Assembly (NCBI GenBank): GCA_910575665.1
Contig: CAJTFB010000010.1
Coordinates: 1-64,000 of the forward strand
DNA from: Eubacteriaceae bacterium
GTDB taxonomy: Bacteria; Bacillota; Clostridia; Lachnospirales; Lachnospiraceae
Reading direction: 5' to 3'
DNA length: 64,000 nt
A model generated the notes under the pieces. That model had not been told where the DNA came from, made no database searches, and was given only the letters and a program-made list of their open reading frames with translations. Below, piece after piece: positions 2,587-19,668 of this stretch. Numbering within the stretch: the stretch's first letter is position 1; each line of letters starts with the position of its first letter. The position numbers and the translations under genes were made by a program.

Positions 2587-2617
2587 ACGATACATTAGAA
2601 TAGAGAGGATAATATTT

Positions 2618-3640: not shown

Positions 3641-3891
3641 TATAATTTGAAAAAAAGTACTACTTTATTCAAATAAGGGAAATTCGGAATAAACTGATAG
3701 ATTTGTGATTGAAAATGTCTTTTTCTTCATTTTATGTGTAAAAAACCCCTTTTCAGCAAAAAAATTCAAGTTTTTGTTTGGAATGTTATATAATGTTTCC
3801 TGAACAATATGTAAAGGAAAAATGCATTATTATTCATTGTAAAAATGATTTAAAAAGACTAGAATTTTTTTATAAGGAGAGTTACAAGAAG
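3641..3891 (+). other. AT-rich intergenic region at the edge of the accessory cluster
   Basis: There is no gene here. The stretch contains A/T runs and a TATAAT-like hexamer at about 3789-3794 that could be the -10 of the downstream XRE gene; the matching -35 is poor. No clear terminator follows the epimerase-like gene. Because base composition changes across this interval, it is a plausible boundary of acquired DNA. Confidence 0.4.
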
Positions 3892-4221
3892 ATGAAAGAA
3901 ATAAAGAACAAAGACATTGGGTATCGAATTATGGAGCTTCGTCTTGATCGGGGATATTCCAGAGAACGGCTGGCAGAAAGAGCAGGAATCTCTTCCAAAT
4001 TCCTGTTTGAAATTGAGCGTAATGAAAAAGGATTTTCTGCAAATACATTGATAAATCTGGCAGAAGCTTTGGATGTAAGTGCTGATTATATCATGACGGG
4101 ACATGGAAGTACCAAGTTTGATGAAGGGATTGCAGAGGCATTGGAAAAGTTTGAACCGAGCATTTTAGAAAAGGTAGAAGATTTGCTGAAGCTTGCATAC
4201 GAGATTGCTCACTGTAACTAA
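3892..4221 (+). CDS. XRE-family HTH transcriptional regulator (paralogue of the gene at 16.1 kb)
   Basis: This 109-residue protein has an N-terminal Cro/C1-type helix-turn-helix: RIMELRLDRGYSRERLAERAG, then SSKFLFEIERNEKGFS, then ADYIMTG. A C-terminal acidic helix, FEPSILEKVEDLLKLAYEI, may dimerise. The start chosen is ATG 3892 behind AAGGAG; an upstream TTG at 3778 extends the frame but has no Shine-Dalgarno and no match in the paralogue. It closely resembles the regulator at 16099-16431 over its whole length, including the spacing of the Shine-Dalgarno. Target genes are unknown; the adjoining GH43 gene is one candidate. Confidence 0.85.
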   Translation: MKEIKNKDIGYRIMELRLDRGYSRERLAERAGISSKFLFEIERNEKGFSANTLINLAEALDVSADYIMTGHGSTKFDEGIAEALEKFEPSILEKVEDLLKLAYEIAHCN

Positions 4222-4254
4222 AGTGGATTATAATCACATACTATGATTATAAAG

Positions 4255-4283
4255 CGCTTATCTTTTTGGAGATAGGCGTTTTT
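4255..4283 (+). terminator. Rho-independent terminator after XRE gene
   Basis: The arms CGCTTATCT and AGATAGGCG pair with one G-U, followed by a run of Ts. It lies 34 bp after the regulator stop and isolates it from the GH43 gene. Confidence 0.8.
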
Positions 4284-4550
4284 AAATGGAGGATGTCCAG
4301 AACACAGGCAAAGGAGTGAGTAAAGGAGGCGTTGGAAATAATTTAAAACTCAGACTAGCCATTTCACCCAGAATTTGGTACAATGAATCTACCGGTTATG
4401 CTGCTAAATGTAATGCTGAATTTGTCAAAAAACAGAGAAAGGGGGAACGTAGATTAATCACGTATCAAATTCGGTTTTACATTTAAGTAAGAAGCAATAA
4501 ATTTTGCATAAACCAAATGGGGATTTACAAATTATGGAAAGGAAGGTATC
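4284..4550 (+). other. Leader region of the GH43 gene, no supported gene
   Basis: A 66-codon open frame (4286-4486) lies here but has no family resemblance, so I do not call it. A weak promoter-like pair (TTGCAT and TACAAA, about 16 bp apart, near 4505-4532) sits just before the GH43 Shine-Dalgarno AAGGAAGG. No convincing cre site or riboswitch was seen. Confidence 0.3.
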
Positions 4551-7088
4551 ATGACGAAACAAATCAAATCAAAATTGTATGTGGTGGGTATGCTGATCAT
4601 CTTGGGGATGATCGCTACACTGACGAGGTTTGACGAGACCTTTGCTGCCGATAAGTTGGTAAGTGGTTCTGTGAGAAGTTCTTCAAACAACAATCCGATT
4701 ATGGATCATAAGTTTGCAGCAGATCCTTTTGCCATGACTTACAACGGAAGAGTGTATGTTTATATGACCAATGACAGCGAATGCTATGACCGCACGAACA
4801 AAGATGGGAGCGGCAATCCGACAACTGCTAATAAGTATAGTACCATTTCGACGCTTACCGTTTCATCTTCCAGCGATTTGGTGAACTGGGTTGATCATGG
4901 GGAGATCAATGTGGCCAATATTACATCATGGGCGAGAAATTCCTGGGCGCCATCTGTGTGTTGCAAGCGTATCAATGGCAAGGACAAGTTTTTCCTATAC
5001 TTCGCTGACAATGGCAACGGTATCGGTGTTCTGCAGGCGGATTCGCCGATTGGACCATTTACTGAGCCGCCGACAGGAAGCCATCTGATCCGCAGAGGAT
5101 CCCAGGCTGCCGAGGGAGTGGAGTGGTTATTTGATCCAGCTGTGCTGGTTGACGATGACGGAACGGGATATCTGTATTATGGAGGAGGCATACCAGGAGG
5201 TGATAATGCTTCCCAATATCAGAAAAACTATCCTGGAACTGCTAGAGTGGTACGTCTGGCAGATAATATGGTTCAGCTTGCAGGAAATGCGGTGACGATC
5301 AATGCGCCGGGTCTCTTTGAGGACTCTGGAATACATAAGAAGAACGGAAAATATTACTATACGTATTGTTCTAATTTCTCAAATAACCTTTCGACGACGG
5401 GCAATGGAAACATATGCGCTATGGAAAGCAATAGCCCGATGGGACCATTTACCTATGTTGGAATCGTGCATGAAAACCCTTATACATATTTTAGAATTGG
5501 TGGAAATAATCATCATGCCTTTTTTGAGTTTAATGGAAGCACCTATCTGACATACCATGCACAGACATTGACCAAAGCGTTGGCATTCCCAGATCATTGT
5601 CAGGGGTACCGCTCGACGCATATGGATAAGGTTTCCTATGATTCCAATGGACATATCAAAATGGTCAAGGGAACCTATCAGGGCGTGTCACAGACGAGAA
5701 ATCTCGATCCTTACGTGCGGAATGAGGCGGAGACCATTGGCTGGAGCAAGGGTCTGAGAACTAGTATGACCTGGCAGCCAGGTTCCTTTATCCAATCCTC
5801 CAATATGAAAGTTTCCCATATTCATAACGGGGACTGGCTGGCTGTATCTGACGTCGACCTGAAGACGGGGCTGAAATCGATCGCGATAGGTGCCCAGCCT
5901 GTAAATGGCGGCGGAAAAGTAGAGGTAAGGCTGGATAGCCAGTACGGCACCAAACTGGGAGAAGTACAGATCTCCGGCAGTTCAACAGCATGGAAGGAAT
6001 ATACCGCTTCCCTTTCAACAGCGACAGGTGTACACGATATCTATTTTGTTTTCACAGGTTTATCTTCAGGCGAACTGTTCTATCTGGACTATTGGAAGAT
6101 GTCGAGAACAAACACCACAGTAGATGTGCCCGCACCATCCGGGGACGAGCTTGTAAAAAATGGAACCATCGAGGATGGTATGACGAACTGGAGCAGTTTA
6201 TATGGCTGCAATCTGAGCTTGGGATATGTGACGGTGCACTCGGGAAAACTTTCCCTCAAAGCATCCGGCAGGAAAATGACGTCCGCCGGGGCAGTGCAGG
6301 ATATGACAGGTCGTCTTGAGAAAGGGAAGACCTATCAGGTCAGTGCAGCGGTACGATACAATGTATCAGAAAATCCGGGCGCAACCGGCCAGACGAAGTT
6401 TTTCATGAGCATCATTTACGGGGACGGAAAGATCGAAAATATGGCATCTGTGACAACCGCAGGTGACAAGTGGGCAGTGATCGACGGTAAATATACCGTT
6501 CCAGCGGGGGCTGATCTAAGCAGCGTCAGGGTATTTATCGAGACTGCTTACAAGGCAGATCCTGCTGCTCAGGATCTGGTATCCTTCTTTGTGGATGACG
6601 TATCCATAAAGAAAACGGCGGATCCGACCCAGAGCGGCAGTGGAGTACCATCCGACGGCTGGTATTATATTAAGAATACCAATTCCGGCAAATATCTGCA
6701 GGTGGCAGATAACAAAGGTGGAAACAGTGTAAATGTAGTGATCGGAACAGGCGCCGCATCCGCAAGCCAGAAATGGTATGTTACAAATCTCGGAAACGGA
6801 TACGTGACGTTGAAAAACGGCCTGGGATATATGCTGGATGTAGAATATGGCGCCAACAGCGACGGAGCCAATATTCAGACATATTCAGCAAACGGGGCAG
6901 ATGCCCAGATGTTCAAGATCCAGAAAACATCTACGACAAATATCTTTGGTATAACGACCAAAGTGACAAAGGATACAAAGGGACTTGATGTGTACAACTT
7001 TGGCAAATCCGATGGGACCAATGTATGCCAGTGGCAGTATAATGCAACATCGAACCAGACCTGGAGTTTCGAGGCATGCAGCAAGTAA
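4551..7088 (+). CDS. Secreted GH43 family arabinofuranosidase/xylosidase with CBM6-like, CBM22-like and ricin-type domains
   Basis: This secreted glycoside hydrolase is likely to release arabinose or xylose side groups from arabinoxylan. Residues 1-33 are a signal peptide ending near ETFA. The five-bladed propeller of GH43 spans about 45-380, with the expected acidic triad: D58 in AADPF (base), D195 in LFDPAV (pKa modulator) and E257 in LFEDSG (acid). A CBM6-like module starts at NEAETIGW (about 391-525), then a CBM4/9/22-like module (about 533-690) and a C-terminal ricin-type beta-trefoil (about 700-845) with QKW and QTW repeats. The order GH43-CBM6 resembles Bacillus XynD. No LPXTG or dockerin is visible, so it is probably released. 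It stands alone between two terminators. Confidence 0.88.
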   Translation: MTKQIKSKLYVVGMLIILGMIATLTRFDETFAADKLVSGSVRSSSNNNPIMDHKFAADPFAMTYNGRVYVYMTNDSECYDRTNKDGSGNPTTANKYSTISTLTVSSSSDLVNWVDHGEINVANITSWARNSWAPSVCCKRINGKDKFFLYFADNGNGIGVLQADSPIGPFTEPPTGSHLIRRGSQAAEGVEWLFDPAVLVDDDGTGYLYYGGGIPGGDNASQYQKNYPGTARVVRLADNMVQLAGNAVTINAPGLFEDSGIHKKNGKYYYTYCSNFSNNLSTTGNGNICAMESNSPMGPFTYVGIVHENPYTYFRIGGNNHHAFFEFNGSTYLTYHAQTLTKALAFPDHCQGYRSTHMDKVSYDSNGHIKMVKGTYQGVSQTRNLDPYVRNEAETIGWSKGLRTSMTWQPGSFIQSSNMKVSHIHNGDWLAVSDVDLKTGLKSIAIGAQPVNGGGKVEVRLDSQYGTKLGEVQISGSSTAWKEYTASLSTATGVHDIYFVFTGLSSGELFYLDYWKMSRTNTTVDVPAPSGDELVKNGTIEDGMTNWSSLYGCNLSLGYVTVHSGKLSLKASGRKMTSAGAVQDMTGRLEKGKTYQVSAAVRYNVSENPGATGQTKFFMSIIYGDGKIENMASVTTAGDKWAVIDGKYTVPAGADLSSVRVFIETAYKADPAAQDLVSFFVDDVSIKKTADPTQSGSGVPSDGWYYIKNTNSGKYLQVADNKGGNSVNVVIGTGAASASQKWYVTNLGNGYVTLKNGLGYMLDVEYGANSDGANIQTYSANGADAQMFKIQKTSTTNIFGITTKVTKDTKGLDVYNFGKSDGTNVCQWQYNATSNQTWSFEACSK

Positions 7089-7191: not shown

Positions 7192-7509
7192 TCATTTGGT
7201 TGTAATCGTAGAGGCATCCCATGAACTGGAAAATAAGAAGAGTGCAACACAGATAAGTATCAATATTCCCAAAATGATGAAACAAACCATTACTTTCTTT
7301 GAAATGTCGATACTTGTGGCTTCCACATCACTGACTTCCCCGCAGAATAAATTCTTTATTTCCTCTGAGGAGCTTTCTGGATGATTGCCCCAATAGGCAG
7401 ACATTTCATTGAACAGATTTTTTCTGTAGTTTCTGCCCTCAAAAAAGGGATACTGGGAAAGGGGGTATGCTTGTCTGGCAATCTTTTTCAATTCTTTTTT
7501 CTGGTTCAT
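7192..7509 (-). CDS. Small single-pass membrane protein, DUF6120-like (guess), last gene of PadR operon
   Basis: The product is about 105 residues: a basic, amphipathic cytoplasmic part, then the phrase SSSEEIKNLFCG, then one membrane helix (MVCFIILGILILICVALFLF) and a short tail. It is a diverged relative of the protein at 8023-8457, which has the same plan and a matching CSYDDIVHKFGTP phrase. Both resemble small proteins I recall being filed as DUF6120 beside PadR regulators in Lachnospiraceae; this is from memory and not verified. ATG 7509 is chosen because GGAG lies six bases upstream; ATG 7521 and TTG 7527 are alternatives that would overlap the preceding gene. The function is unknown. 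Confidence 0.6.
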   Translation of the reverse strand: MNQKKELKKIARQAYPLSQYPFFEGRNYRKNLFNEMSAYWGNHPESSSEEIKNLFCGEVSDVEATSIDISKKVMVCFIILGILILICVALFLFSSSWDASTITTK

Positions 7510-7523
7510 AGAAGTCTCCATGG

Positions 7524-8009
7524 TCAACTAAAGGTTCCGTTTTTGCTGCATGTAATCGAAATAGTTTTGCTTTTTATCAATGTTCGACGTCTCACTTTGA
7601 TCGTTCCCGTGGCGGTGCTGCCGGAGTAGGAGTGCTTTTCATCGTATAGGGAATAAGCGGAGTTGTAGATCGACAGCTTTGCTCTGGCATCTGCGCACAC
7701 GGCGCTGAATCCGGTAATGTAGCGGAAGGTTCCCGTTAGGGAATACCGCCAGCAAAGGGAATTGTTGGAATTATAATATTCGAAATGCTTCGTTCTGTCT
7801 ACTGTGGCAGCGATGCTGCTATAAGGGCTGACAGAAAAGGGGGACATAGAGGGTGTTTCCGTTATCGTTTCTACATAATACCCTCCATCAGCGTCTCTGG
7901 TGATGGTTGTTTTGGTCGTAGGCATCGGGGTGGCTGCCGAAGCAGTCGGTGGAATTGTGAGGCAGGCGGTCAGTGTCAGCATAAATAAGCAGGTTAATAT
8001 TCTTTTCAT
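7524..8009 (-). CDS. Secreted protein of unknown function (signal peptide, about 160 aa)
   Basis: ATG 8009 is preceded by AAGGAG nine bases upstream. The N-terminus is a clear signal peptide (KRILTCLFMLTLTACLTIPPTASAA) with cleavage near TASA; the LTAC within it resembles a lipobox, so a lipoprotein is possible. The mature part, about 135 residues, is rich in Ser, Thr and Tyr and looks beta-stranded. It contains the phrases YNSNNSLCWRYSLTG and GSTATGTIKVRRRT. I recall similar exported proteins under DUF6147, unverified. It sits between two related small membrane proteins, in an operon headed by padR. Confidence 0.65.
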   Translation of the reverse strand: MKRILTCLFMLTLTACLTIPPTASAATPMPTTKTTITRDADGGYYVETITETPSMSPFSVSPYSSIAATVDRTKHFEYYNSNNSLCWRYSLTGTFRYITGFSAVCADARAKLSIYNSAYSLYDEKHSYSGSTATGTIKVRRRTLIKSKTISITCSKNGTFS

Positions 8010-8022
8010 TGGTATCATCTCC

Positions 8023-8457
8023 TTAATCAAATGTGTACTCCCCATAAGGAGTAAAATCCGGTGGTGGCGGGCTGGTATCTGTCGTATCCCTTTGGTCCAT
8101 GTATTCTATGTAGTGTCCTTTTGAGTGATCAAAAGAATTTGTGACATAATCGATGGTAAATAGCATGATCGATATCGTTATGAGGACAGAGAACAGGATA
8201 ACAAGCCGGTATAATAGGATACTTCGTTTTTTTAACATATCAGCGGAAGCAAAAGATTCGCGAAGTTCTTTTGGCGTTCCAAATTTATGAACGATATCAT
8301 CATAGGAACAGCCGGGATGAGATTCCACATAACACAAAAGAGCGTCTTCTACATCCAGAAGAAACTGCTTCTTTAGTTTTTTGTCCCCGTAATAAATATG
8401 TTTTGCTTGGCGAAGATATTTTTTAAACACTTTATTATCCAAAATCTGGTCCTCCAT
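8023..8457 (-). CDS. Small membrane protein, DUF6120-like (guess)
   Basis: The 144-residue protein has a basic N-terminal half (KKYLRQAKHIYYGDKKLKK), the phrase CSYDDIVHKFGTPKELRESF and one membrane helix (YRLVILFSVLITISIMLF). A Pro/Asp-rich external tail follows (PPPPDFTPYGEYTFD). The segment before the helix resembles that of membrane proteins paired with PadR regulators, where the soluble part is cytoplasmic. It begins seven bases after the padR stop. The start is ATG 8457, with GTG 8460 directly before it as an alternative. It is related to the smaller protein at 7192-7509. The role is unknown; an export or envelope-sensing partner of the secreted protein is an inference. Confidence 0.65.
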   Translation of the reverse strand: MEDQILDNKVFKKYLRQAKHIYYGDKKLKKQFLLDVEDALLCYVESHPGCSYDDIVHKFGTPKELRESFASADMLKKRSILLYRLVILFSVLITISIMLFTIDYVTNSFDHSKGHYIEYMDQRDTTDTSPPPPDFTPYGEYTFD

Positions 8458-8464
8458 CACAATA

Positions 8465-8809
8465 TTACCTGGTATTTTTTATAATCTTATCTACAGCACC
8501 AGTTATGGATGCATACTCTCGTTTAAGATTCTGCAAGTGTTCCTGGCCTGCGGGCGTGATTTCATAATACACACGCGTGCGGCGGACACCTACTTTTACC
8601 TGGTTGCAGATCAAATATCCATTTTGCGTCAGGCGATATAATGTGGGGTACATCGTGGCCTCTTTCAGTTCATACTCACCGTCACTGTATTCTTCGAGTT
8701 CCTGAGCTAACTGATATCCGTATTTTTGTCCCTTTTGTAACAAAAGAAGGAGAACAAGTTCAATCGTACCCCGCTTCATATTATTTTGCTTTCGAGTTTG
8801 TTTTGTCAT
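8465..8809 (-). CDS. PadR-family transcriptional regulator
   Basis: The winged-helix core of PadR proteins is plain: RGTIELVLLLLLQKGQKYGYQ, the recognition segment EATMYPTLYRLTQNGYL and the wing GVRRTRVYYEITPAG. This is followed by a short dimerisation helix. The length of 114 residues is typical of small PadR proteins, which usually repress their own operon and a nearby transporter until a ligand or envelope stress is present. ATG 8809 has GAGG ten bases upstream; ATG 8833 and the Met at RGTIEL are alternatives. It heads the minus-strand operon and faces a consensus plus-strand promoter across a shared palindrome. Confidence 0.9.
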   Translation of the reverse strand: MTKQTRKQNNMKRGTIELVLLLLLQKGQKYGYQLAQELEEYSDGEYELKEATMYPTLYRLTQNGYLICNQVKVGVRRTRVYYEITPAGQEHLQNLKREYASITGAVDKIIKNTR

Positions 8810-8867
8810 ATATACCAGCCTCTGGTTTGTCAATTATTTTATGTTACTGGTAAGAGAGAATACCTTT

Positions 8868-8896
8868 ATTTTATACGTAAATAAAGAAAAAGTCAA
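8868..8896 (-). promoter_or_regulatory. Sigma-A promoter of the padR operon
   Basis: On the minus strand TTGACT (8896-8891) and TAAAAT (8873-8868) are 17 bp apart. Start of transcription would be near 8861, about 50 bp before the padR start codon. Confidence 0.75.
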
Positions 8897-8911
8897 ATGT
8901 TTTATAAAAAA

Positions 8912-8934
8912 AATACTTTTTACTAAATAGTATT
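8912..8934. promoter_or_regulatory. Candidate PadR operator between divergent promoters
   Basis: An inverted repeat with core TACTAAATAGTA (8921-8932) extends to AATACT and AGTATT arms. It abuts the -35 of the plus-strand promoter and lies 15 bp upstream of the minus -35. Position and symmetry fit a site through which the divergently encoded PadR could control both operons; binding is inferred. Confidence 0.45.
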
Positions 8935-8962
8935 TGACATATATATATTATTGTAGTATATT
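8934..8962 (+). promoter_or_regulatory. Consensus sigma-A promoter facing the ABC operon, now blocked by an IS
   Basis: TTGACA (8934-8939) and TATATT (8957-8962) are separated by exactly 17 bp. The only plus-strand genes downstream are the exported-protein/permease operon, from which it is now separated by about 1.5 kb of insertion sequence in the opposite orientation. Confidence 0.75.
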
Positions 8963-8999
8963 TATATCAAGTGATGAGAGGGAGTAAGAAGAGAGAATG

Positions 9000-9140
9000 T
9001 TCTTGTTGCTAATTTAAAAAGTCCAGCTAATAAATGTCAATAGAAAAATGGGAAAAATTTTCTCCTAAAAAAGGGCGCACTTATCCCTTGGTGAAAATAC
9101 CCTGTTTAAAAAGATATTGATTCGTTGGCTTTACAGTATT
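9000..9140 (-). ncRNA. Candidate bridge-RNA region of the IS110-family element
   Basis: This is the longer non-coding end of the element, downstream of the transposase stop. It contains two hairpins: GGGAAAAATTTTCTCC (9050-9065) and AAGGG...CCCTT (9071-9089, nine-base loop). IS110 relatives encode a bridge RNA in a non-coding end; the downstream position resembles the IS1111 branch. The strand and boundaries are inferred, and the loops have not been matched to target or donor bases. Confidence 0.3.
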
Positions 9141-10457
9141 TTATGCGGCTGTGTCGCATTTTGCAGCATTATATTGTTTCATATGCTCCTGTGGAGTGAT
9201 GATTTCAAAAGGCTTGTTATCCCTGAGTATTGCAAATATCATGTTGCATACCTTGTGTGAAACAGCACCCATTGCCACAAGCTTTGGTTTTGTCCCACAT
9301 TTTTTGAGGTAGTAATCACGGAGTACTGGATTTTTAGCTTCACCCGTACGGGATACACTGATACTTTGTAAAGTTAGTGTATGGATAACACGCCTGGCTA
9401 TGGCAGAGCCTCTTTTGGACATTTGAATTTTGGTACCTTCAAATTTGCCGGATTGTTTTACTGCCGGATCAAGGCCAAAGTAAGCAAAAAGTTGTTTTGG
9501 CTTTGAAAATGCAGAAAAATCCCCGATCTCTCCCATGAGGGATACGGCGGATAAGAAACCAGCGCCTTTGAATGTTTCAATTAAGTGAATCTGCTTCACA
9601 AAATCAGTATCTTCATTAGCATTCACGAGTTCGTGCATTGATTCCAAGATGCCGTTGATCTCTTCATCATATTTGCGGATGAAGCTGATATAGAGCCGGA
9701 TCCGCTTGATGTTGCTGTCAATGATGTAACCGAACTCATCCGCCTCATTAGCAGCCTTGATGATGGCATTATACTTGTCTTGGGCATAGGTAAGTCCAAA
9801 ACGGGCAGTTGATTTGATGATATCAATAATCTCTTGTCTGTCTGCTTCAATAAAGGCAGACGGGGATGTATATGCCTCCAATAAGGTAAGGGATGTATTG
9901 GTTGTAACCTTGGAGAAAATGCCAAGATACTGTGGAAATGCCATACGCAGTTCACCCTGGAGCTTGTTCACGTAAGCGCTGCGGTTATCCACTAAATCGT
10001 AGTATTCACGGCATAAATTGCGACAGTTTAAGGCAAGATCAGACGGCATAAGGGAAACCTTTAAATCAGGTTTCAAACCAACCAAAGCAGCTTTTTTAGA
10101 ATCAAAACGGTCATTATGTACTTTTCGTATGTTGATATTTGTGCTATTCTTAGTGATGATAGGATTAATAACGGAGCAGTTAAAACCCTTATCACGAAGA
10201 TAGCAGAAGAGTGGGTAATGATAAATTCCCGTGGATTCGAGGAAAATGCGACTTTCCAAAGAATACAGATCTTCTGCTTCTTTTATTTTAGAAACAGCGG
10301 CTGTAAGGGAATTCATGCTATTGTGTAGGATTTTAAAAGGTTTTCTCACAAACTGTTGGTTTGGAAGTGCGACAGACATCCATGAGAAGTCAGCGCCAAC
10401 ATCAATACCAACAGATATGAATAATTCATCAAGATTAAAAATAACTTTGTTTGACAT
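9141..10457 (-). CDS. IS110-family transposase (DEDD-type recombinase)
   Basis: The N-terminal RuvC-like DEDD domain begins SVGIDVGADFSW and continues through ESTGIYHYP and NDRFDSKKAAL. The C-terminal Tnp_20 domain (GAGFLSAVSLMGEIGDFSAF, AYFGLDPAVKQSG, MSKRGSAIARR) carries the serine region of the family. This gives 438 residues and an apparently complete enzyme. ATG 10457 has AAAGGAG eight bases upstream; the frame extends further to 10508 without a ribosome site. IS110 recombinases insert DNA using a bridge RNA made from a non-coding end of the element. The gene runs against the ABC operon it has entered. Confidence 0.92.
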   Translation of the reverse strand: MSNKVIFNLDELFISVGIDVGADFSWMSVALPNQQFVRKPFKILHNSMNSLTAAVSKIKEAEDLYSLESRIFLESTGIYHYPLFCYLRDKGFNCSVINPIITKNSTNINIRKVHNDRFDSKKAALVGLKPDLKVSLMPSDLALNCRNLCREYYDLVDNRSAYVNKLQGELRMAFPQYLGIFSKVTTNTSLTLLEAYTSPSAFIEADRQEIIDIIKSTARFGLTYAQDKYNAIIKAANEADEFGYIIDSNIKRIRLYISFIRKYDEEINGILESMHELVNANEDTDFVKQIHLIETFKGAGFLSAVSLMGEIGDFSAFSKPKQLFAYFGLDPAVKQSGKFEGTKIQMSKRGSAIARRVIHTLTLQSISVSRTGEAKNPVLRDYYLKKCGTKPKLVAMGAVSHKVCNMIFAILRDNKPFEIITPQEHMKQYNAAKCDTAA

Positions 10458-10531
10458 GAGCAAAAGCTCCTTTCTGATAGGAATCCATTTCCAGTCTGGC
10501 AGGTACACAACCTAGCGTGTTATACGGGTAT

Positions 10532-10867
10532 ATATTCAAGAATGGTAAAAAAGCGGCATCAGGCCTGGTTCTGACCATGATGGCAGTATGTATGGTTTCA
10601 TCCATGGCTCAGGGAGCTGTCGATCGGCATGGATCAAGAAATAGAGATTCAAAAGGTTATTACAGTTATACGAAGGTGTCAGGCCACGATGACAATGGAT
10701 ATGGGTATAAATTGAAGGTGGAAGCCAGAATGGCGGAAGGCGATTGGAGTTCCCGCATGGATTATGGGATAGTTGATATCCGTTCTAAATCCAGTAGTTA
10801 TTTTGCAGATGCTTGGCACCGTTATCAAATCGGCAGTGGTAACAAAGTAGAGTGGAAGCAAAATTAA
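10532..10867 (+). pseudogene. Small exported protein, copy 1, 5' end lost to IS insertion
   Basis: From KNGKKAASGLVLTMMAVCMV onward this is collinear with the intact copy at 12330-12674. It keeps the hydrophobic signal core, the AQG/AVD cleavage region and the mature part (YYSYTKVSGHDDNGYG, DIRSKSSSYFADA, YQIGSG). The first five or so codons and the ribosome site lie beyond the insertion junction. The frame can be extended back to a GTG at 10517, but no Shine-Dalgarno precedes it. Unless that GTG is used from an outward IS transcript, the copy is silent. Confidence 0.75.
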
Positions 10868-10916
10868 TTATGGTTTTGCGTTCTTTTGTTTCTTTGATTT
10901 CGGTTAGGAGTTGTCT

Positions 10917-12266
10917 ATGAGGAAAATAAAATTTATCACCGAGGAATTTTTCCGGAGTTTCCATAAGAGTCTGCTGAAGAATCTGCTGTTAATGGCTATG
11001 TTTTCGATCAGTCATGTGATGATGGTGATCATGGCATCCTACTATTTTGATCTGGGAGACCGCTATCTTGGTTCAACACAGCAGCTGGGGGACAGAATCT
11101 GGTGCCCTTTGGAGCTTATGTCGAGTGAAGACAGCGAAATCGAAGATAGTCTAATGACGGTTACGGACTGCCGTAATATGATGGATTATTACGAAACCCT
11201 CAGGTTATCTAAAGATTGTCCCATTATTTCTGTGGATATACCAGACCTTTATATGAAAGAAGAAGATGTAAAGTATTTTTTTGGTGACAGAAGTTATAAC
11301 AATTTTAAGCCAGAACCTGAGAGAGAGGCAGTTATGGCAGAGTTTGAGGATGAGGGGATATGCAGTCTGATACATATGAAAAGTGCGCGGATTGATTTGG
11401 GGGCTTACCGCTGCTTTGATCTAAGGACTCAGGAGGGAGAGGGCTTCACGGAGCAGAATCTGAGACTGGAGCACTGGTCGGATCCCATTCCCATCCTCCT
11501 GGGAAGCGACTACAAAGGGATCATTGAGCCAGGGACTGAGTTTAGTATCCAGTGTTGTTTCTATGACTATCCCTGCAGGGTGGTGGGCATATTGGAGAAG
11601 GGAGCTGTGATCCCGCAGTACCCGGCTTCCGCTAATACCGATTTGAGCCAGTTGGATTCCCAGATTCTTTTACCCTTTGGGATTCAGGTTTCAGAACCTG
11701 CTGAGACGGTAGATGAGATCAAAAAATATGCGTATCTTGCTTTATTAAGTTTGGAAGCTGGAATTGCACAGATTCCGGAAGGAAAAGTGAAAGAACAGGT
11801 CGGAGTGTTCCAGGATGTGGGAAAAAAGTTTGAACTTCCGCCGGTTCATGTGGTAGGTACCACCATGGGAGTGGATCTTCTGCGGAAGGAATCCGTGGTC
11901 AGTATTAGAATCCTGTTGATCCTGTCTATTACCCTGTCCTGTTTTACGCTGTATGGTATTTTTATCACTTTTTATGACAAGATACAGTCTAACAGCAGGG
12001 TATATGGCATTTATTTGATGAATGGATGTTCTCTAAGCATGATCTTGATTCCTCTTCTGCTGGAGATTGTCGTGACCCTCCTGCCCGCAGTTTTTGTGAG
12101 CAGATTGATGTTTGTAAGAGAGGATGCGAACGTGTATTATAGGCCGGAGGCCATCATGAGAGCGGCATATGTGATCATAGGTCTGGTATTTTTGATTGGC
12201 ATAGGGGTTGTTGCGTTTTTGATGCGGGGCGTCGACACGGAGCATCTGATCCGCCAGGAGGACTAA
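10917..12266 (+). CDS. FtsX/MacB-like ABC permease, copy 1 of tandem pair
   Basis: The 449-residue permease has the FtsX plan. There is one N-terminal membrane helix (about 21-43), an extracellular domain of roughly 280 residues, and three C-terminal helices beginning at SIRILLILSITLSCF. Between the second and third helices lies a cytoplasmic NSRVYGIYLMNG segment that would meet the ATPase. FtsX-like permeases of the MacB type move substrates from the outer membrane face or act as mechanotransmitters and sensors. ATG 10917 has TAGGAG six bases upstream. It lies 49 bp after the broken exported-protein gene and is collinear, without gaps, with the permease at 12724, to which it is very similar (roughly four fifths identical by eye). 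Confidence 0.8.
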   Translation: MRKIKFITEEFFRSFHKSLLKNLLLMAMFSISHVMMVIMASYYFDLGDRYLGSTQQLGDRIWCPLELMSSEDSEIEDSLMTVTDCRNMMDYYETLRLSKDCPIISVDIPDLYMKEEDVKYFFGDRSYNNFKPEPEREAVMAEFEDEGICSLIHMKSARIDLGAYRCFDLRTQEGEGFTEQNLRLEHWSDPIPILLGSDYKGIIEPGTEFSIQCCFYDYPCRVVGILEKGAVIPQYPASANTDLSQLDSQILLPFGIQVSEPAETVDEIKKYAYLALLSLEAGIAQIPEGKVKEQVGVFQDVGKKFELPPVHVVGTTMGVDLLRKESVVSIRILLILSITLSCFTLYGIFITFYDKIQSNSRVYGIYLMNGCSLSMILIPLLLEIVVTLLPAVFVSRLMFVREDANVYYRPEAIMRAAYVIIGLVFLIGIGVVAFLMRGVDTEHLIRQED

Positions 12267-12329
12267 AGGAGCATTCAGTTGGAGATGTTAGAGAAATTAT
12301 CAAATTGAAAAACGAAAGGAATGATAAAT

Positions 12330-12674
12330 ATGAAGAAAATATTGAAGAATGGAAAAAAAGCGGTAGCAGGCCTGGTCCTGACCATGATGGCAGTATGTAT
12401 GGTTTCATCTATGGCTCAGGGTGCTGTCGATCGATATGGTAAAAGAGATAAGGATAAAAAAGGCTATTACAGTTATACGAAAGTGTCAAGTTACGATGAC
12501 AGAGGATATGGGCATAAGTTGAAGGTGGGAGCCCAAATCGTTGGAGGAGAATGGAGTTATTGGGAAAATAGCGGGACGGCAGATATTCGTTCTAAATCCG
12601 TTAGTTTTTTTGCGGATGCCAGACATAGTTATCAGATCGGCAGTGGTGATAAAGTAGTTTGGATCCGAAACTAA
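12330..12674 (+). CDS. Small exported protein of unknown function, copy 2 (intact)
   Basis: The 114-residue precursor starts at ATG 12330, nine bases after AAAGGA. It has a basic N-terminus (KKILKNGKKA), a hydrophobic core (LVLTMMAVCMV) and a signal peptidase I site near AQG/A. The mature part, about 83 residues, has no cysteine and is rich in Tyr, Ser, Gly and charged residues. Phrases are GYYSYTKVSSYDDRGYG, TADIRSKSVSFFADA and YQIGSGDKV. It looks like a small beta-sandwich protein and faintly recalls lactococcin 972-type bacteriocins, which are also followed by permease and ATPase genes, but I cannot support that assignment. Each copy precedes its own permease by about 50 bp, so the pair probably acts together. 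Confidence 0.7.
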   Translation: MKKILKNGKKAVAGLVLTMMAVCMVSSMAQGAVDRYGKRDKDKKGYYSYTKVSSYDDRGYGHKLKVGAQIVGGEWSYWENSGTADIRSKSVSFFADARHSYQIGSGDKVVWIRN

Positions 12675-12723
12675 TTTGGATTTAGCGCCCGTTAGCTTGT
12701 TTGATTTAGTTTAGGAGTTGTCT

Positions 12724-14073
12724 ATGAAAAAAATAAGATTTATGACCGAGGAATTTTTCCGGAGTTTCCATAAGAGTCTGCTGAAGAATCTGCTGCTGAT
12801 GGTTATATTTTCCATCAGCCTTGTGATGACGGTGATCATGGGATCCTACTACTTTGGTTTGGGAGAGCGTCATCATGAATCGACGCAGCAGGTAGGAGAC
12901 AGAACCTGGTGTCCCTTGGATCTTATGACAGAAAATGACAGTGAGATTGAGGAAAGCCTGATGACGGCCACGGGTTGCCAAAACATGATGGAATATTATG
13001 AAACCCTCAGATCCTCCAAAGATTGTCCTATTATTTCAGTGGAAATACCAGGTATTAATATGAAAGAAGAGGATGTGAAGCGTTTTTTTGGTGGCAGAAG
13101 TTATTTGAATTTTCTGCTGGAAACGCGGAGAGAGGCATTTATGGCAGGGTTTGGGGATGAGGGGATGTGCAGCCTGCTGGATATGAAGGGGGCTCGGATC
13201 GATCTGGGTGCATACCGTTACTTTGGTCTGGGAACCCAGGAGGGAGAGGGCTTCACGGAGCAGAATCTGAAACTGGATCACTGGTCGGACCCCATCCCCG
13301 TCCTCCTGGGAAGCGATTACAAGGGGATCATGAAGCCGGGGGATGAGTTCAGCCTATGGTGCTGGGGATATGTTTACCCCTGCAGGGTGACGGGTATCTT
13401 GGAGAAGGGGGCTATGATCCCGGAGTACCCGGCTGCAGAAAATACTGATTTCTGCCAGCTGGATTCCCGGATACTTCTGCCCTTTGGGATTCAGGTTTCA
13501 GAGCCTGCTGAGACAGTAGATCAGATCAAAAAATATGCATATCTTTCTTACCTGAGTCTGCAGTCTGGAATCGCACAGATCCCAGAAGGAAAAGTGAAAG
13601 AACAGGTCGCGGTGTTCCGGGATGTGGGAAAGGAGTTTGAACTTCCGCCGGTTCAGGTGATAGGTACTACCATGGGAGTGGATCTTCTGCGGAATGAATC
13701 CATTGCCAGCATTAGAATCCTGCTGATCCTGTCTGTTACTCTGTCCTGTTTTACGCTGTATGGTATTTTTATCACCTTTTATGACAAGATACAATCCAAC
13801 AACAGAGTATATGGTATTTATCTGATGAATGGATGTTCTCTAAGTATGATCCTGGTTCCGCTTCTGCTGGAGATTGCTGTGATTCTTGCTCCCGCGGTTT
13901 ATGTTAGCAGACTTGTGTTTGAAAGAGAGAATTCCAATGTGTATTATATGCCGGAGGATATCATACGAGTGGCATGTGTGATTGCAGGTCTGGTGTTTGT
14001 GTTGGGCATTGGGGTTGTTGCCTTTCTGATGAGGGGCGTCGATACGGAGCATCTGATCCGACAGAAGGACTAA
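12724..14073 (+). CDS. FtsX/MacB-like ABC permease, copy 2 of tandem pair
   Basis: This is a 449-residue paralogue of the permease at 10917, aligned without gaps, with the same helix plan. Differences concentrate in the extracellular domain, for example around FGGRSYLNFLLETRREAF and SLWCWGYVYPCR. The C-terminal helices and the GVDTEHLIRQ tail are nearly unchanged. ATG 12724 has TTAGGAG six bases upstream, the same leader as copy 1. It ends ten bases before the ATPase gene. With the ATPase it should form one transporter; two permease paralogues plus the third permease at 14803 allow homo- or heterodimers. Confidence 0.82.
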   Translation: MKKIRFMTEEFFRSFHKSLLKNLLLMVIFSISLVMTVIMGSYYFGLGERHHESTQQVGDRTWCPLDLMTENDSEIEESLMTATGCQNMMEYYETLRSSKDCPIISVEIPGINMKEEDVKRFFGGRSYLNFLLETRREAFMAGFGDEGMCSLLDMKGARIDLGAYRYFGLGTQEGEGFTEQNLKLDHWSDPIPVLLGSDYKGIMKPGDEFSLWCWGYVYPCRVTGILEKGAMIPEYPAAENTDFCQLDSRILLPFGIQVSEPAETVDQIKKYAYLSYLSLQSGIAQIPEGKVKEQVAVFRDVGKEFELPPVQVIGTTMGVDLLRNESIASIRILLILSVTLSCFTLYGIFITFYDKIQSNNRVYGIYLMNGCSLSMILVPLLLEIAVILAPAVYVSRLVFERENSNVYYMPEDIIRVACVIAGLVFVLGIGVVAFLMRGVDTEHLIRQKD

Positions 14074-14083
14074 AGGAGGGAAC

Positions 14084-14803
14084 ATGGAAATGGAAAAGAT
14101 ACAGATCAGAGAGGTATGGAAGACCTTTGGTAAAAAAGAAGCACGCGTTGAGGCGCTGCGGGGAATTACGCTCTCGATCCAGGAGGGTGAAATGGCAGCC
14201 ATTATGGGAAAAAGTGGTTCTGGCAAATCCACCCTTCTAAATATCCTCGGTGGCATGATGTCAATGGACAGCGGGGAGTATTTGTATGATGGAAATGCAG
14301 TTAATTTCAAGAGCCAGCGGGATTTAACGAGATTCCGGCGCAATGAGGTTGGATTTGTGGTGCAGTACTTTGCTCTCATAGAGGATATCACTGTTTTTAA
14401 AAATGTGGCACTTCCCCTGAAGTATCAGGGATACTCCGGGCGGAAGATCAAGGAAATGGTGATGGATGCCCTGAGAGAGCTGGGCATCGAGGATAAGGCA
14501 AAAGCGTATCCTTCAGAATTGTCGGGAGGGCAGCAGCAGAGGGTGGCGATTGCGCGGGCCATTGTGAAGCGACCCAAAGTGATTCTGGCAGATGAGCCCA
14601 CCGGGGCGCTGGATGAGGCCACAGGGGAAGAGGTACAGAATATCTTCCGGAAGCTGAATGAAAAGGGAAACACCATCGTTATTGTCACACACGATGAGAA
14701 GGTGGCAAGAAATTGCGACAGGGTCATCTATGTGAAAGACGGCAAGGTGCCAGGAACCCAGGAGGAAGTGAGAAAAGGATATAGCGGGGGAGGGGATGCG
14801 TGA
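14084..14803 (+). CDS. ABC transporter ATP-binding protein, MacB/LolD type
   Basis: The 239-residue ATPase has Walker A GKSGSGKST at 42-50, a Q-loop in FVVQYFAL, the signature LSGGQQQR, Walker B VILADEPTGAL and the switch His in VTHD. The length and the sequence around the signature match the LolD/MacB/FtsE class that partners FtsX-like permeases. It lies ten bases after permease copy 2 and overlaps the next permease by one base (TGATG). It would power all three permeases of the operon. Confidence 0.93.
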   Translation: MEMEKIQIREVWKTFGKKEARVEALRGITLSIQEGEMAAIMGKSGSGKSTLLNILGGMMSMDSGEYLYDGNAVNFKSQRDLTRFRRNEVGFVVQYFALIEDITVFKNVALPLKYQGYSGRKIKEMVMDALRELGIEDKAKAYPSELSGGQQQRVAIARAIVKRPKVILADEPTGALDEATGEEVQNIFRKLNEKGNTIVIVTHDEKVARNCDRVIYVKDGKVPGTQEEVRKGYSGGGDA

Positions 14804-15840
14804 TGAAAATTGCTGGAAAGAGGATTCCCAAAGGAAACCTTCTTTTATTTTTTAGTTTTACCGCCATCTCCCTCTGTCTTTTGTTGATCGTATCTGCGGT
14901 CCGCGCCGAGAAGGTGAATCGTCTGAATAAGTACACGATGTATTCGGGCCATCATAAGGGATTCAGTATCAGTGGTGGGGATGGTGTAGAGCAGTGGGAA
15001 CCTGTGATTTCGGAGCTGGTATCCCAGAATGAAGGTTTTACTCTTTATGTGCCCATAGAGGATCCAGGGATTATCGTGAAGGGAATCTGTACCTGGGGGG
15101 ATGACAGGGAGGTACCGATTCTTTGGGGGGATTATTTTGATTTCTCCACCTCGTGGACGGATACGCCCAGGGCGGTTTTGGGCAGCCAGTATGAGAAAGA
15201 TATTGTGGAACGGAATGGGAAAAAATACTACGAATTTAATGAAGTGGATTTTGAAGTGATCGGAATCATGGGTACCAAAGATGAGAGCCGGATCAATCAA
15301 ATGCTGCTGATTGATTTTAAGTCTGCCGTCGGTATCACTGGAGTGGAGACAAATTATGTGCTGGATGGTGAAAAAAGTGATTTATTGGGGATCGGCCAGC
15401 AGATTTATGACAACATGCCCTTCCCTTCGAATGTGATCATCTCTTTGGAGGAGACAGAGGCAGTTTCCTTTGTGGAGCGTTTTTTGGCGCCAGATGTCAT
15501 AATGGATACGATGTATATAATGATTCTGATCAGTTTTTCGCTGAGTACGGTTCTGGTCACGCTGATCTGGCTCCGTTTTCGCAGGCAGTTATTTTTTGCG
15601 TGGAAGCTGTGTGGTTATGACAGACGTTCGGAGCGGATGGAAATATCCAAACGGTTTTATCTGACCACCGGAGCGGGTTTTGGGACGGGGCTGGTTTTGA
15701 TGTGTGTCATTGTCCAGGGCATGTCGGAAATTCACCTGGCGTTCCGTGATATTTTGGGAGCTTTGGCCATAACGGTTGGTATGGGGACGTTGATTCTATT
15801 TTTCTGTTATTTTCTGGATCGAAGAAAAGCTGGGAGCTAG
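14803..15840 (+). CDS. Third FtsX-like permease of the PadR-linked ABC operon
   Basis: The 345-residue protein has one N-terminal helix (LLLFFSFTAISLCLLLIV), an extracellular domain of about 210 residues and three C-terminal helices (YIMILISFSLSTVLVTLI and following). This is the FtsX plan in a shorter form than the tandem pair. The start is ATG 14803, sharing bases with the ATPase stop, so translation is coupled. The external domain is not clearly related to that of the other two permeases. It is the last gene of the operon. A heterodimer with one of the 449-residue permeases is plausible but inferred. Confidence 0.75.
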   Translation: MKIAGKRIPKGNLLLFFSFTAISLCLLLIVSAVRAEKVNRLNKYTMYSGHHKGFSISGGDGVEQWEPVISELVSQNEGFTLYVPIEDPGIIVKGICTWGDDREVPILWGDYFDFSTSWTDTPRAVLGSQYEKDIVERNGKKYYEFNEVDFEVIGIMGTKDESRINQMLLIDFKSAVGITGVETNYVLDGEKSDLLGIGQQIYDNMPFPSNVIISLEETEAVSFVERFLAPDVIMDTMYIMILISFSLSTVLVTLIWLRFRRQLFFAWKLCGYDRRSERMEISKRFYLTTGAGFGTGLVLMCVIVQGMSEIHLAFRDILGALAITVGMGTLILFFCYFLDRRKAGS

Positions 15841-16935: not shown

Positions 16936-17682
16936 ATGAATGTACTGATTTTGGAAGATAATGAAGTGGCAAGAAATGCCCTGGTTAAGATCGTAAAATC
17001 CTGTATGAATCAGATTGAGGTTTTTGCTTTTGATAATAGAGGTGAAGCTTATATGTGTGCTATGGACAAAAACATCGATCTGTTTCTCGTGGATATCATA
17101 CTGAATCCGAAAGAGAGAAATGATACTTCGGGAATACGCTTTGCCAGCGATCTCAGGGATAATATCCGTTATAAGGCAAAGCCTATTATATTCATAACTA
17201 CCTTGTCTGGCTTAGAGGGAGCGCTGCTCAGGCAGGTGCATTGTTATGATTATATCGAAAAACCCATTGACGCGCCAAGGGTAAGGCGGCGTATTCTTGA
17301 GGCTCTCGATGCCATTGTGGCAGAGCGTAAGCTAAAAAAGCCAGAACAGCTTTCTTTACGTTATGATGGGGTTAATTTTCCAGTGATCATTGATGAGGTC
17401 ATCTATATGGTCAGCAGGAGGGGAGTATTGTACATTTATGGGATAGAGGACCGGATTGAAATTCCCAATCTTCCCATGAGTACCTTTTTAAGCCGAATCC
17501 GGGATAATCATTTCCTGATTCCCATCAAAGGGACAGCAGTCAATATAAGATATATCAGGTCTGTTGATTTTTCCCAGAATAAAGTCTATTTAAAACGGAC
17601 GAAAGATGTGGTGGACATCGGGGGAAGGATGAAAAAAAGGTTTAGAGAGGAATTTGAAGAATGTTTTCGTTTGATCAATTAG
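16936..17682 (+). CDS. LytTR-family response regulator (AgrA-like)
   Basis: The 248-residue protein has an N-terminal receiver with the acidic pair in LEDNE and phosphoacceptor D53 in LFLVDII. The conserved Lys is in YIEKPID. A C-terminal LytTR DNA-binding domain follows (about 140-245; VIYMVSRRGVLYIYG, FLIPIKGTAVNIRYI). AgrA-type regulators bind direct repeats in promoters and switch on quorum-sensing genes when phosphorylated. It has GGAGG before ATG 16936 and overlaps the kinase gene by 22 bp. Since the kinase is frameshifted, phosphorylation by its own partner is doubtful in this strain. Confidence 0.92.
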   Translation: MNVLILEDNEVARNALVKIVKSCMNQIEVFAFDNRGEAYMCAMDKNIDLFLVDIILNPKERNDTSGIRFASDLRDNIRYKAKPIIFITTLSGLEGALLRQVHCYDYIEKPIDAPRVRRRILEALDAIVAERKLKKPEQLSLRYDGVNFPVIIDEVIYMVSRRGVLYIYGIEDRIEIPNLPMSTFLSRIRDNHFLIPIKGTAVNIRYIRSVDFSQNKVYLKRTKDVVDIGGRMKKRFREEFEECFRLIN

Positions 17683-18922
17683 TGGTTCACGTAAACAGTC
17701 TTTTGGAAATTACCAGTGTGATCATGCTTATCCATGTGCTGAATGTCGGTAAATCCAGGTTCAGACTGTTGAATTTTGTGCTGTTTTATATTTGCCTCAT
17801 TACATACCTTGTCTGGGTCAATCTTTTTATGGAGAGTAAGGAATTATTTGCTCTGGGGTATATTATCCTGCTTTTGTTCGCAAAATGGCAGTATCAGATG
17901 GCGATATTGCCGGGAGTGATTATTGTGGTTGGTGCAGTTGTAACGGTTGGAATCTTAGAGATGATTTATTATGCACCAGTTAGTCTGTTGAGTATGTTAC
18001 ATGTTTCAGACAGTTTGATTTCCTTTTTTGTGGTGTTAGCGATGTCTATAACCGTCTTTCTTACACATAAAAGAATACCGGTATATAAGGTTCATAAACT
18101 TTTGTTTCAGCAGGAAAAGTACTCCTTTATTGTGAGCAGTATATGCAGTGCGGCTGTGATCTATGCCATTATTTCTTTCAGCGGAAGCAAGGGGCTTACG
18201 TTCTCAGAATATTTTTATGTGATCTGCTGTGTGGCGATTATTGCATTATCCTCCTATAAGCTAAATAAGTACCGCTATGAAGTCAAGCTTCGGACAGAGT
18301 ACTCAGAGAAATATGGTGAGGTGCTGGAGCAGATCCGGGAGCGCCAGCATAAGTTTTCCAATCAGCTGAACGCCATCTATGCCCTTCACCAGCTCTATCA
18401 TACCTATGAGGAACTGGTAGAAAAGCAGAAAGAGCAGACGAAGGAACTGGGCAAATACATAATGCCGAACACCGTTATTATCCTAAAAAATCCTATCGTG
18501 ATCGCCCATGTGTATCAAAAGATCTGCGAGGCGGCAGATCATGGCATCCGGCTGCATACCAAATTTACCTGTGAGCTGGAGAGCGTGTCCATACCGGACA
18601 TCTATCTGGTGGGATCATCGGGACACTTTTTGACAATGCCATGGAAAATATCCTCGAAGAGCGCCCCGAGGCAGAGATGTATCTTGAGATTACGGGAAAA
18701 GAAGACCATGTGATGATCGAGGTCTGCAATGAACATCCGTTTATTCACCAGTCGGAATGGAGAAAATTTCTTCAGAGAGGTTATTCCACGAAGGGAAAAG
18801 GCAGAGGACTTGGACTGTATCATCTGAAGAAACTGATGGCGAAATACGATGGTGATATCCTGATTCAAAATAAGTTGATAGATGAAAGGCCATATTTTTC
18901 GATTGCGGTAAAGATACAATAA
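17661..18922 (+). pseudogene. AgrC-like GHKL sensor histidine kinase, broken by a one-base frameshift
   Basis: The N-terminal half has about six membrane helices (to about residue 200), then a dimerisation helix with the phosphoacceptor in RQHKFSNQLNAIY (H230). Frame 1 reads through IYLVG and then runs out of the family sequence, stopping at 18713. From 18614 the next frame continues with IIGTLFDNAMENILEE (N box) and STKGKGRGLGLYHLKKLM (G box) to a stop at 18922. Loss of one G in the GGG at 18611-18613 explains this exactly. Restored, the protein would be about 420 residues, normal for AgrC. It is either a real inactivation or a sequencing error in a short homopolymer. The truncated product would lack the whole ATPase domain. 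Confidence 0.85.
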
Positions 18923-18971: not shown

Positions 18972-19103
18972 TCAGTCTTTGTCTTCTGGATATTCCGGCT
19001 CTCCAAAGAATACAAAACTGGTGCCGTGAAACCGCATAAATGCGCCGAGGGCAAGACACAGGCTGCAGAGACTATACAGGGATGTTTTTGTGAATTTTTT
19101 CAT
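18972..19103 (-). CDS. agrD: AgrD-like autoinducing peptide precursor (43 aa)
   Basis: This short gene overlaps the 3' end of agrB by 32 bp, the normal agrBD arrangement, and has AAAGGA nine bases before its ATG. The 43-residue product has a basic amphipathic leader (KKFTKTSLYSLCSLCLALG), a candidate signal segment GTSFVFFG and an acidic, proline-rich tail EPEYPEDKD. AgrD tails of this kind are removed by AgrB. No Cys is present in the signal segment, so Ser29 would close the ring as a lactone (for example SFVFF), instead of the usual thiolactone. Leader cysteines 13 and 16 lie in the part that is discarded. Ring size is inferred. Confidence 0.8.
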   Translation of the reverse strand: MKKFTKTSLYSLCSLCLALGAFMRFHGTSFVFFGEPEYPEDKD

Positions 19104-19668
19104 AATGTTGTTTCCTTTCTTTTATTAGTTTGGCAGCGACAAGCTGCAGTATTTGTAAAATACTTACCCAGAAAATGAGATTCCGAAAGGGGAAGTACTT
19201 GACATTCAAAAGCAGGAGTATATAGAAAAGTAACACGGCACAGGCGATGATGCGGAATACATTTCCCTTTTTCCTTGAGGGGGCGGGACGCCTGTCCGAG
19301 GAAACCGGACCGATGATGCCAATGATAAAGATACCGGCTGTCAGGCATAGGATCTGAATCCATAGGGAAAGGAAACACAGCTCTGCTAAAATTATTGTGC
19401 TCAATAAAAATGAAAAGGTAAAGAGCAGACAGGACAGATAATGTGAAAGATGAATCCCACCAGTGAAATTACGTATGGATAGAAGTACTAGAATAGCTAC
19501 CAATAATTCCTTCTGGCGGTTCATCAGGGAAAACGCAGTAAACAATATAGCTAATTTGCTGGTCTCCGATATAAAACTGATGATCACATAACGGATTCTG
19601 GCGATTTCCAGCTCAGTAAAATGGAATTCCCGCGATAAATACGGGGAAATATCTTTGAATGCTGACAT
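19072..19668 (-). CDS. agrB: AgrB-like accessory gene regulator protease
   Basis: The 198-residue membrane protein has about four to six helices and the AgrB signature RNFTGGIHLSHYLSCLLFT. This contains the catalytic His and Cys of the family. AgrB cuts the tail of AgrD and helps form the cyclic peptide at the membrane. ATG 19668 has GGAGGG about eight bases upstream. It is transcribed away from the AI-2E gene and towards the kinase, opposite to the classical agrBDCA order, so signal production and sensing have separate promoters here. Confidence 0.9.
   Translation of the reverse strand: MSAFKDISPYLSREFHFTELEIARIRYVIISFISETSKLAILFTAFSLMNRQKELLVAILVLLSIRNFTGGIHLSHYLSCLLFTFSFLLSTIILAELCFLSLWIQILCLTAGIFIIGIIGPVSSDRRPAPSRKKGNVFRIIACAVLLFYILLLLNVKYFPFRNLIFWVSILQILQLVAAKLIKERKQHYEKIHKNIPV

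Follow-up and report, generated by a model that had tools for sequence, protein, structure and literature searches.

What is the function of an operon that encodes two small exported proteins, three permeases and a single ATP-binding cassette (ABC) ATPase, and does it form one unit with the padR operon that faces it? This question is raised by a locus in a 64,000-nucleotide stretch of DNA (the window) from a Eubacteriaceae bacterium of the Lachnospiraceae (assembly GCA_910575665.1, contig CAJTFB010000010.1, positions 1 to 64,000). A first-pass annotation had proposed that the locus makes, senses or resists a secreted peptide or protein, which is still the best class of explanation, although the activity is inferred and the exported proteins match no characterised family. 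Our preferred reading, to which we assign a probability of roughly 45%, is that the locus encodes bacteriocin-like secreted proteins and a cognate ABC immunity machine with split permeases, controlled by PadR and a HAAS-like membrane protein and located beside an agrBDCA cluster. It is proposed that the small exported proteins leave the cell via their signal peptide and fold outside it into a beta-sandwich. The permease of each pair would combine with permease 3 and the ATPase, which all pairs share, into a split MacB/FtsX-like ABC machine, and the permease ectodomain would recognise the cognate exported protein, most likely protecting the producer. PadR would occupy one operator between both promoters and be released via its HAAS-like membrane partner upon disturbance of the envelope, and the downstream agrBDCA cluster probably adds control by cell density.

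The plus-strand operon (10517-15840) consists of exported protein 1 (10517-10867), permease 1 (10917-12266), exported protein 2 (12330-12674), permease 2 (12724-14073), a MacB-type ABC ATPase (14084-14803) and permease 3 (14800-15840). The two exported proteins are 70% identical and carry their own signal peptide-like segment according to hydropathy, and the ATPase matches PF00005, which bears out the two small exported proteins and one ATPase of the first-pass annotation. Its grouping of all three permeases as one FtsX-like family does not hold. Judged by hydropathy peaks, a crude method for locating transmembrane segments, all three have four hydrophobic peaks with an ectodomain between the first and the second, which is the plan of MacB/FtsX (type VII) proteins. 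Permeases 1 and 2, which are 78% identical, start with one hydrophobic segment followed by an ectodomain of about 280-290 residues and three further segments; permease 3 follows the same 1+3 plan but is shorter, its ectodomain having about 195 residues. Neither permease 1 nor permease 3 has a Pfam or NCBIfam match at E<=1, and a profile of permeases 1 and 2 shows no homology to one of permease 3 (hhalign 4.7%); their likeness is one of topology and not of shared family.

Evidence that exported protein and permease belong together comes from relatives. A search of 61 genomes (the own genome, 36 others of the genus and 24 of the order) found the permease in ten and the exported protein in eight, all of them among the ten, and in all eight genomes that have the exported protein its gene is adjacent to that of the permease. 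Loci have a single pair or at least two in succession, accompanied by one ATPase and one permease 3; one genome (G018) has at least three pairs, distributed over two contigs. Five relatives within the genus contribute six loci (L033-L038) that retain their surroundings; L033, L034, L036 and L037 span the region between the operons, and the contigs of L035 and L038 break off within the operon or at its edge. One pair of L034 appears decayed and the ATPase matches there in two frames. The more the mature exported proteins of two pairs differ, the more the ectodomains of their permeases differ as well (Mantel r 0.63 for a set of 8 pairs, 0.84 for 7 and 0.76 for 6; p 0.0006-0.0033), a relation not seen with the ATPase (r -0.27 and -0.16 for 7 and 6 pairs). 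In all four relatives where it was compared, the mature exported protein shows a higher nonsynonymous divergence (dN) than any other gene analysed, and padR, agrA and the first of two XRE-type genes further downstream are the slowest. In comparisons of ten genes with at most five relatives, the ratio of nonsynonymous to synonymous divergence (dN/dS) lies between 0.02 and 0.48; the window was represented in every case by exported protein 2 and permease 2, even where the copy in the relative was closer to pair 1. The invariable adjacency, the co-divergence with the ectodomain and these dN/dS values argue for a bacteriocin-like secreted protein and a cognate immunity machine.

Further support comes from known systems. 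The loci of lactococcin 972 and streptococcin B (lcn972, DUF1430 permease, ATPase) likewise place a small signal-peptide protein next to an ATPase of similar type, and the best NCBIfam model of the ATPase in the window is TIGR03608 of lactococcin-972 transporters (227.6 bits, below the cut-off of 254.85). Transporter copies also stand there without a bacteriocin gene, scbBC being alone in 157 of 571 genomes according to the part of PMC11796350 drawn on here. The 646- to 648-residue proteins of lactococcin 972 and mediterrocin loci, among them LclB of pBL1 and a 646-residue protein of a mediterrocin-family locus, have eight hydrophobic peaks that can be read as a pair of 1+3 units joined in one chain, where the window has two separate 1+3 permeases; published descriptions give seven transmembrane segments. 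Exported protein 2 is predicted by AlphaFold2 to form a beta-sandwich of seven strands, with a predicted local distance difference test score mostly above 90 past residue 40, and the part of PMC11796350 drawn on here describes lactococcin 972-type bacteriocins as beta-sandwich proteins which interact with lipid II. The mediterrocin cluster of Mediterraneibacter gnavus, as far as the consulted part of PMC12345188 describes it, resembles the window in its secreted protein (114 residues there), ATPase, membrane protein, transcription regulator and one further likely secreted protein. The resemblance in gene content and topology, the ATPase model and the predicted fold are all consistent with a bacteriocin function.

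By the sequence criteria applied, the locus nevertheless falls outside both families. Lactococcin 972 was rejected on TIGR01653, PF09683 and DUF1430/TIGR01654, for the last of which the own genome has no match; its loci show no sequence homology of exported protein or permease to the window, their permease is not split and their regulators differ. Mediterrocin was rejected on NF052268, which exported proteins 1 and 2 do not match (E<=1) and for which the own genome has no match at E<=0.001; its permease is a fused DUF1430 protein, and hhalign aligns the signal-peptide region only. The locus may work like the lactococcin 972 system by analogy, without being a member of it by the tests made. Lactococcin 972, streptococcin B and mediterrocin loci closely resemble the window in layout, so that its gene set is less isolated than the first-pass annotation, which knew of no described system with it, had assumed. 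No such split-permease system was found in the full-text literature among top-ranked titles and abstracts, a coverage from which subscription journals are mostly missing.

The minus-strand operon (7192-8833) encodes, in order of transcription, PadR (8465-8833, with an ATG start probably at 8806), a 145-residue HAAS-like membrane protein (8023-8460), a 163-residue secreted-type protein with an N-terminal hydrophobic segment (7524-8015) and a 111-residue membrane protein (7192-7527). PadR matches PF03551 at 69.9 bits (Pfam cut-off 27) and is a winged helix-turn-helix protein, as in HAAS-PadR dyads. In the 145-residue protein DUF6120 (24.1 bits, cut-off 27) and HAAS (E 0.22) both stay under their cut-offs, and a GTP triplet can be read where the dyad is defined by a HAAS domain with a GxP motif. 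The 111- and 145-residue proteins are related (25% identity, E 3e-5) and have one hydrophobic segment each, and the 163-residue protein has no match in a Pfam scan. The first-pass annotation had recognised this set of padR, two related small membrane proteins and a secreted protein correctly, and its span of 8465-15840 covers the core gene set but omits most of the padR operon (7192-8460). HAAS-PadR dyads are proposed in the part of PMC11237479 available to us as an alternative to two-component systems, and in that description PadR likewise lies beside a HAAS-like membrane protein and near FtsX/MacB-like permeases; the window differs in its sub-threshold HAAS and DUF6120 matches and in permeases that are separate from the HAAS-like protein.

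Control of both operons from one site is suggested by the palindrome AATACT-N11-AGTATT (8912-8934), a feature of the first-pass annotation that is borne out: the pattern has a single match in the window and none in 100 shuffles. It is exact in L033, L034 and L036 with a changed centre, and L037 lacks the outermost pair. A promoter-like site of the ABC operon (8934-8962, plus strand) scores 11/12 and the opposing site (8896-8868, minus strand) 10/12, and the 177-bp stretch containing both is conserved in L050. The back-to-back promoters of the first-pass annotation exist as sites, but their number is not above chance (4 in the window against a shuffle mean of 2.2).

To judge how far the two operons form one unit, 84,980 species genomes were scanned by a pattern-based method with a permease alignment, which returned 24 loci from Roseburia, Eubacterium, Lachnoclostridium, Lachnospiraceae, Eubacteriaceae and Clostridia, most of them in metagenome-assembled genomes; six (L047-L052) come once more from the five relatives in the genus. 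Permease 3 is present in 23 of the 24 and missing from L052, which is cut by a contig end, and an ATPase of more than 60% identity occurs in 21 (absent in L052, L057 and L061). The exported protein is recognisable in 13 loci, and a lipoprotein-like gene is found in 15, none of them L047-L052. In L056 three consecutive lipoprotein-like genes (1694-3646) lie between the exported protein and the permeases. One of the 13 exported proteins, that of L065 (7306-7800), is an in-frame fusion of an N-terminal AgrB part to a C-terminal exported-protein part and is apparently a deletion product. PadR and HAAS-like genes adjoin five loci (L047, L048, L050, L052 and L056); L049 and L051 cannot be judged, as their contigs start at or inside the operon. 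Of the five, L056 alone is not from the clade of the window; it has a divergent PadR (38%) and HAAS-like gene (26%) next to the exported-protein/permease operon. The PadR match of L057 is more than 7 kb away. BlaI and M56 genes lie beside L054 (Pfam) and L064 (by likeness only), LytTR regulators and/or kinases adjoin L062, L063, L065 and L066, AgrB adjoins L065 and L066, and other loci have no recognised regulator adjoining. Because the padR block stands beside only five of the 24, and the others have Agr/LytTR-like or BlaI-M56 genes or none, regulators exchange around a constant core; the unit is the exported protein, the permeases and the ATPase, and PadR-HAAS is one interchangeable regulator. 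The single unit envisaged by the first-pass annotation is thus syntenic in close relatives, with L056 as a distant case, but nearly confined to one clade. The independent occurrence of the two operons, which it had named as evidence against such a unit, is largely what is seen outside that clade, whereas its other such concern, a match of the exported proteins to a characterised family with another role, did not materialise in Pfam or NCBIfam.

Downstream of the operon and separated from it by two XRE-type genes (named by likeness), the window has an agrBDCA cluster, with an AgrA-like LytTR response regulator (16936-17682, plus strand; PF00072, PF04397), an AgrC-like kinase (17661-18922, plus strand), a 43-residue AgrD-like peptide (18972-19103, minus strand) and AgrB (19072-19668, minus strand; PF04647, 95.3 bits). 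AgrB and AgrA are assigned by Pfam, and the peptide and the kinase by reading and relatives; the tail of the peptide is nearly identical in L048, L050 and L051, and a Pfam scan of residues 1-350 of the kinase gave no family at E<=0.01. In this assembly the reading frame of the kinase is broken, which could be an assembly error; the three relatives examined have it open. Agr/LytTR-like genes also adjoin the core relatives L062, L065 and L066 and, among the distant loci described below, L125 and weakly L126. The mediterrocin-family locus L119 has LytTR-, kinase- and AgrB-like genes (1504-5341, named by likeness) directly upstream of its mediterrocin-family gene, as Agr-type genes lie near core relatives. 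This recurrent proximity is a further point in favour of a bacteriocin function.

A number of results weigh against this reading. In the 8-pair set the correlation drops along the gene (0.69, 0.52, 0.14), and the first transmembrane segment correlates too in the 7- and 6-pair sets (r 0.60 and 0.61), which would imply that linkage and recombination may explain part of the co-divergence. The dN/dS values of the ten genes give no sign of positive selection. The exported proteins match no family model, with nothing at E<=1 for TIGR01653, PF09683 and NF052268, and lcn972 itself as a positive control matches both of the first two. Foldseek and VIA-align return common Ig/FN3-like sandwiches only, with no Foldseek match at E<=0.001, and the lcn972 fold (PDB 2LGN) is not among the best 50 matches listed by either search. 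With hhalign the exported protein aligns to lcn972 and mediterrocin over the signal peptide and its edge only, while core residues align, weakly (24%), in the control of lcn972 against mediterrocin. The permeases show no homology to DUF1430 (7.3% and 1.3%, and 0.4% for the distant group, against 97.7% for the positive control of DUF1430 permeases). As the own genome has 8 AgrB and 20 LytTR matches, Agr adjacency alone is weak and could be due to chance at one locus; this is less likely given its repetition in other lineages. Finally, 11 of the 24 core loci have no recognisable exported protein.

These 11 loci also speak against a somewhat unlikely alternative, in which the locus is a module for envelope stress or antimicrobial detoxification that PadR-HAAS switches on upon envelope attack and the exported protein assists the ABC machine, or senses for it, outside the cytoplasm rather than acting as a toxin; by their evidence the machine does not need the protein everywhere. 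A subunit would be expected to co-diverge with the permease ectodomain as observed, BlaI-M56 genes stand beside two core loci, and an lcn972-type locus of Macrococcus encodes a YxeA family protein between its permease and ATPase. The portions of the literature drawn on here also link HAAS-PadR dyads with envelope stress and FtsX/MacB-type proteins (PMC11237479) and report a Bce-like module that mutations had activated following exposure to Lcn972 (PMC7438565). The highest dN in the mature exported protein speaks against this alternative as well, and a pure detoxification system would not be expected to be linked to Agr genes. It is improbable that the ABC machine instead exports the protein or extracts it from the membrane or surface, the protein being a signal or surface factor and not a bacteriocin; the pairing, the co-divergence and the adjoining Agr cluster would suit this, but the exported protein has its own signal peptide-like segment, and parts of PMC12345188 and PMC11796350 infer that mediterrocin and lcn972-type proteins leave the cell by Sec, with no special transporter. 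Rather improbable, too, is that the padR and ABC operons are separate systems that happen to share an intergenic region in one clade. The padR block beside only five core loci is what such chance neighbours would give; a shared palindrome between opposed promoter-like sites, whose arms are kept while the centre changes, and the second, distant case in L056 are not.

The bacteriocin and immunity reading extends, tentatively, to an uncatalogued and wide clostridial class, in which secreted beta-rich proteins of diverse sequence would each fit the ectodomain of an ABC immunity machine whose permease is split in two, under exchangeable regulators (PadR-HAAS, Agr/LytTR or BlaI-M56). A family search with the permease profile found 22 places, most of them weakly matched, in 17 of 299 genomes (own included); all loci returned were viewed with flanking sequence of some 1.5 kb, and six places with more of it. 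In four of these six (L121, L124, L125 and L126) a small secreted-type protein directly precedes permease 3, permease and ATPase, and in L122 and L123 there is none; with short flanks such a protein is seen beside the permease in L093, L096/L097 and L098. The permeases of seven distant split-permease loci are homologous to those of the window (hhalign 99.9%, E 2.4e-33, 372 columns), and that of L072 matches MacB_PCD at E 0.012, below the cut-off. Sarcina plasmid p6 and the Lachnospiraceae loci L072, L121, L124, L125 and L126 share with the window a small exported protein, two permeases and an ATPase, but differ in the order permease 3, permease, ATPase and in exported proteins of other sequence; those scanned from distant loci have no credible match to a family model. 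L125 has a regulator and a kinase upstream and L126 an AgrB-like gene, names which derive from matches far below cut-offs. Lachnospiraceae are abundant in the gut, and few protein antimicrobials are known from them. If the class is real, it would add a second way of building such a system to the DUF1430 type of lactococcin 972 and mediterrocin, and its recognisable core of two half permeases and an ATPase would allow the unannotated exported proteins beside it to be listed and tested. The locus would also bear on the role of the B and C genes of lactococcin-972-type loci, whose function is, according to the part of PMC11796350 drawn on here, verified in no such locus.

In this strain the two operons do not face each other directly, as the first-pass annotation had it, which overlooked a transposase reading frame between them (9141-10508, minus strand). 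It belongs to the IS110 insertion sequence family (NF033542, 170.7 bits, cut-off 140), a family that NCBIfam labels RNA-guided, and the element is a single copy in this genome. Homology to L050 ends at 9009 and restarts at 10532, so that the foreign stretch (9010-10531) replaces 278 bp of the L050 leader including the first three codons of the exported-protein gene. Exported protein 1 thus lacks its native first three codons, and an in-frame GTG at 10517 could serve as its start, while the plus-strand promoter-like site is now about 1.5 kb from its gene. A 40-nucleotide hairpin, identical with its loop in the leaders of L033 (994-1033), L034, L036 and L037, is absent from the window and has no Rfam match at gathering score. 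These four relatives carry no insertion sequence between the operons and keep both operons and the padR block. Both the IS110 stretch and the broken agrC frame probably interfere with control of the operon in this strain. Beyond the distal end of the padR operon, a secreted glycosidase gene (4551-7088), named GH43-like by likeness, stays beside the locus in relatives.

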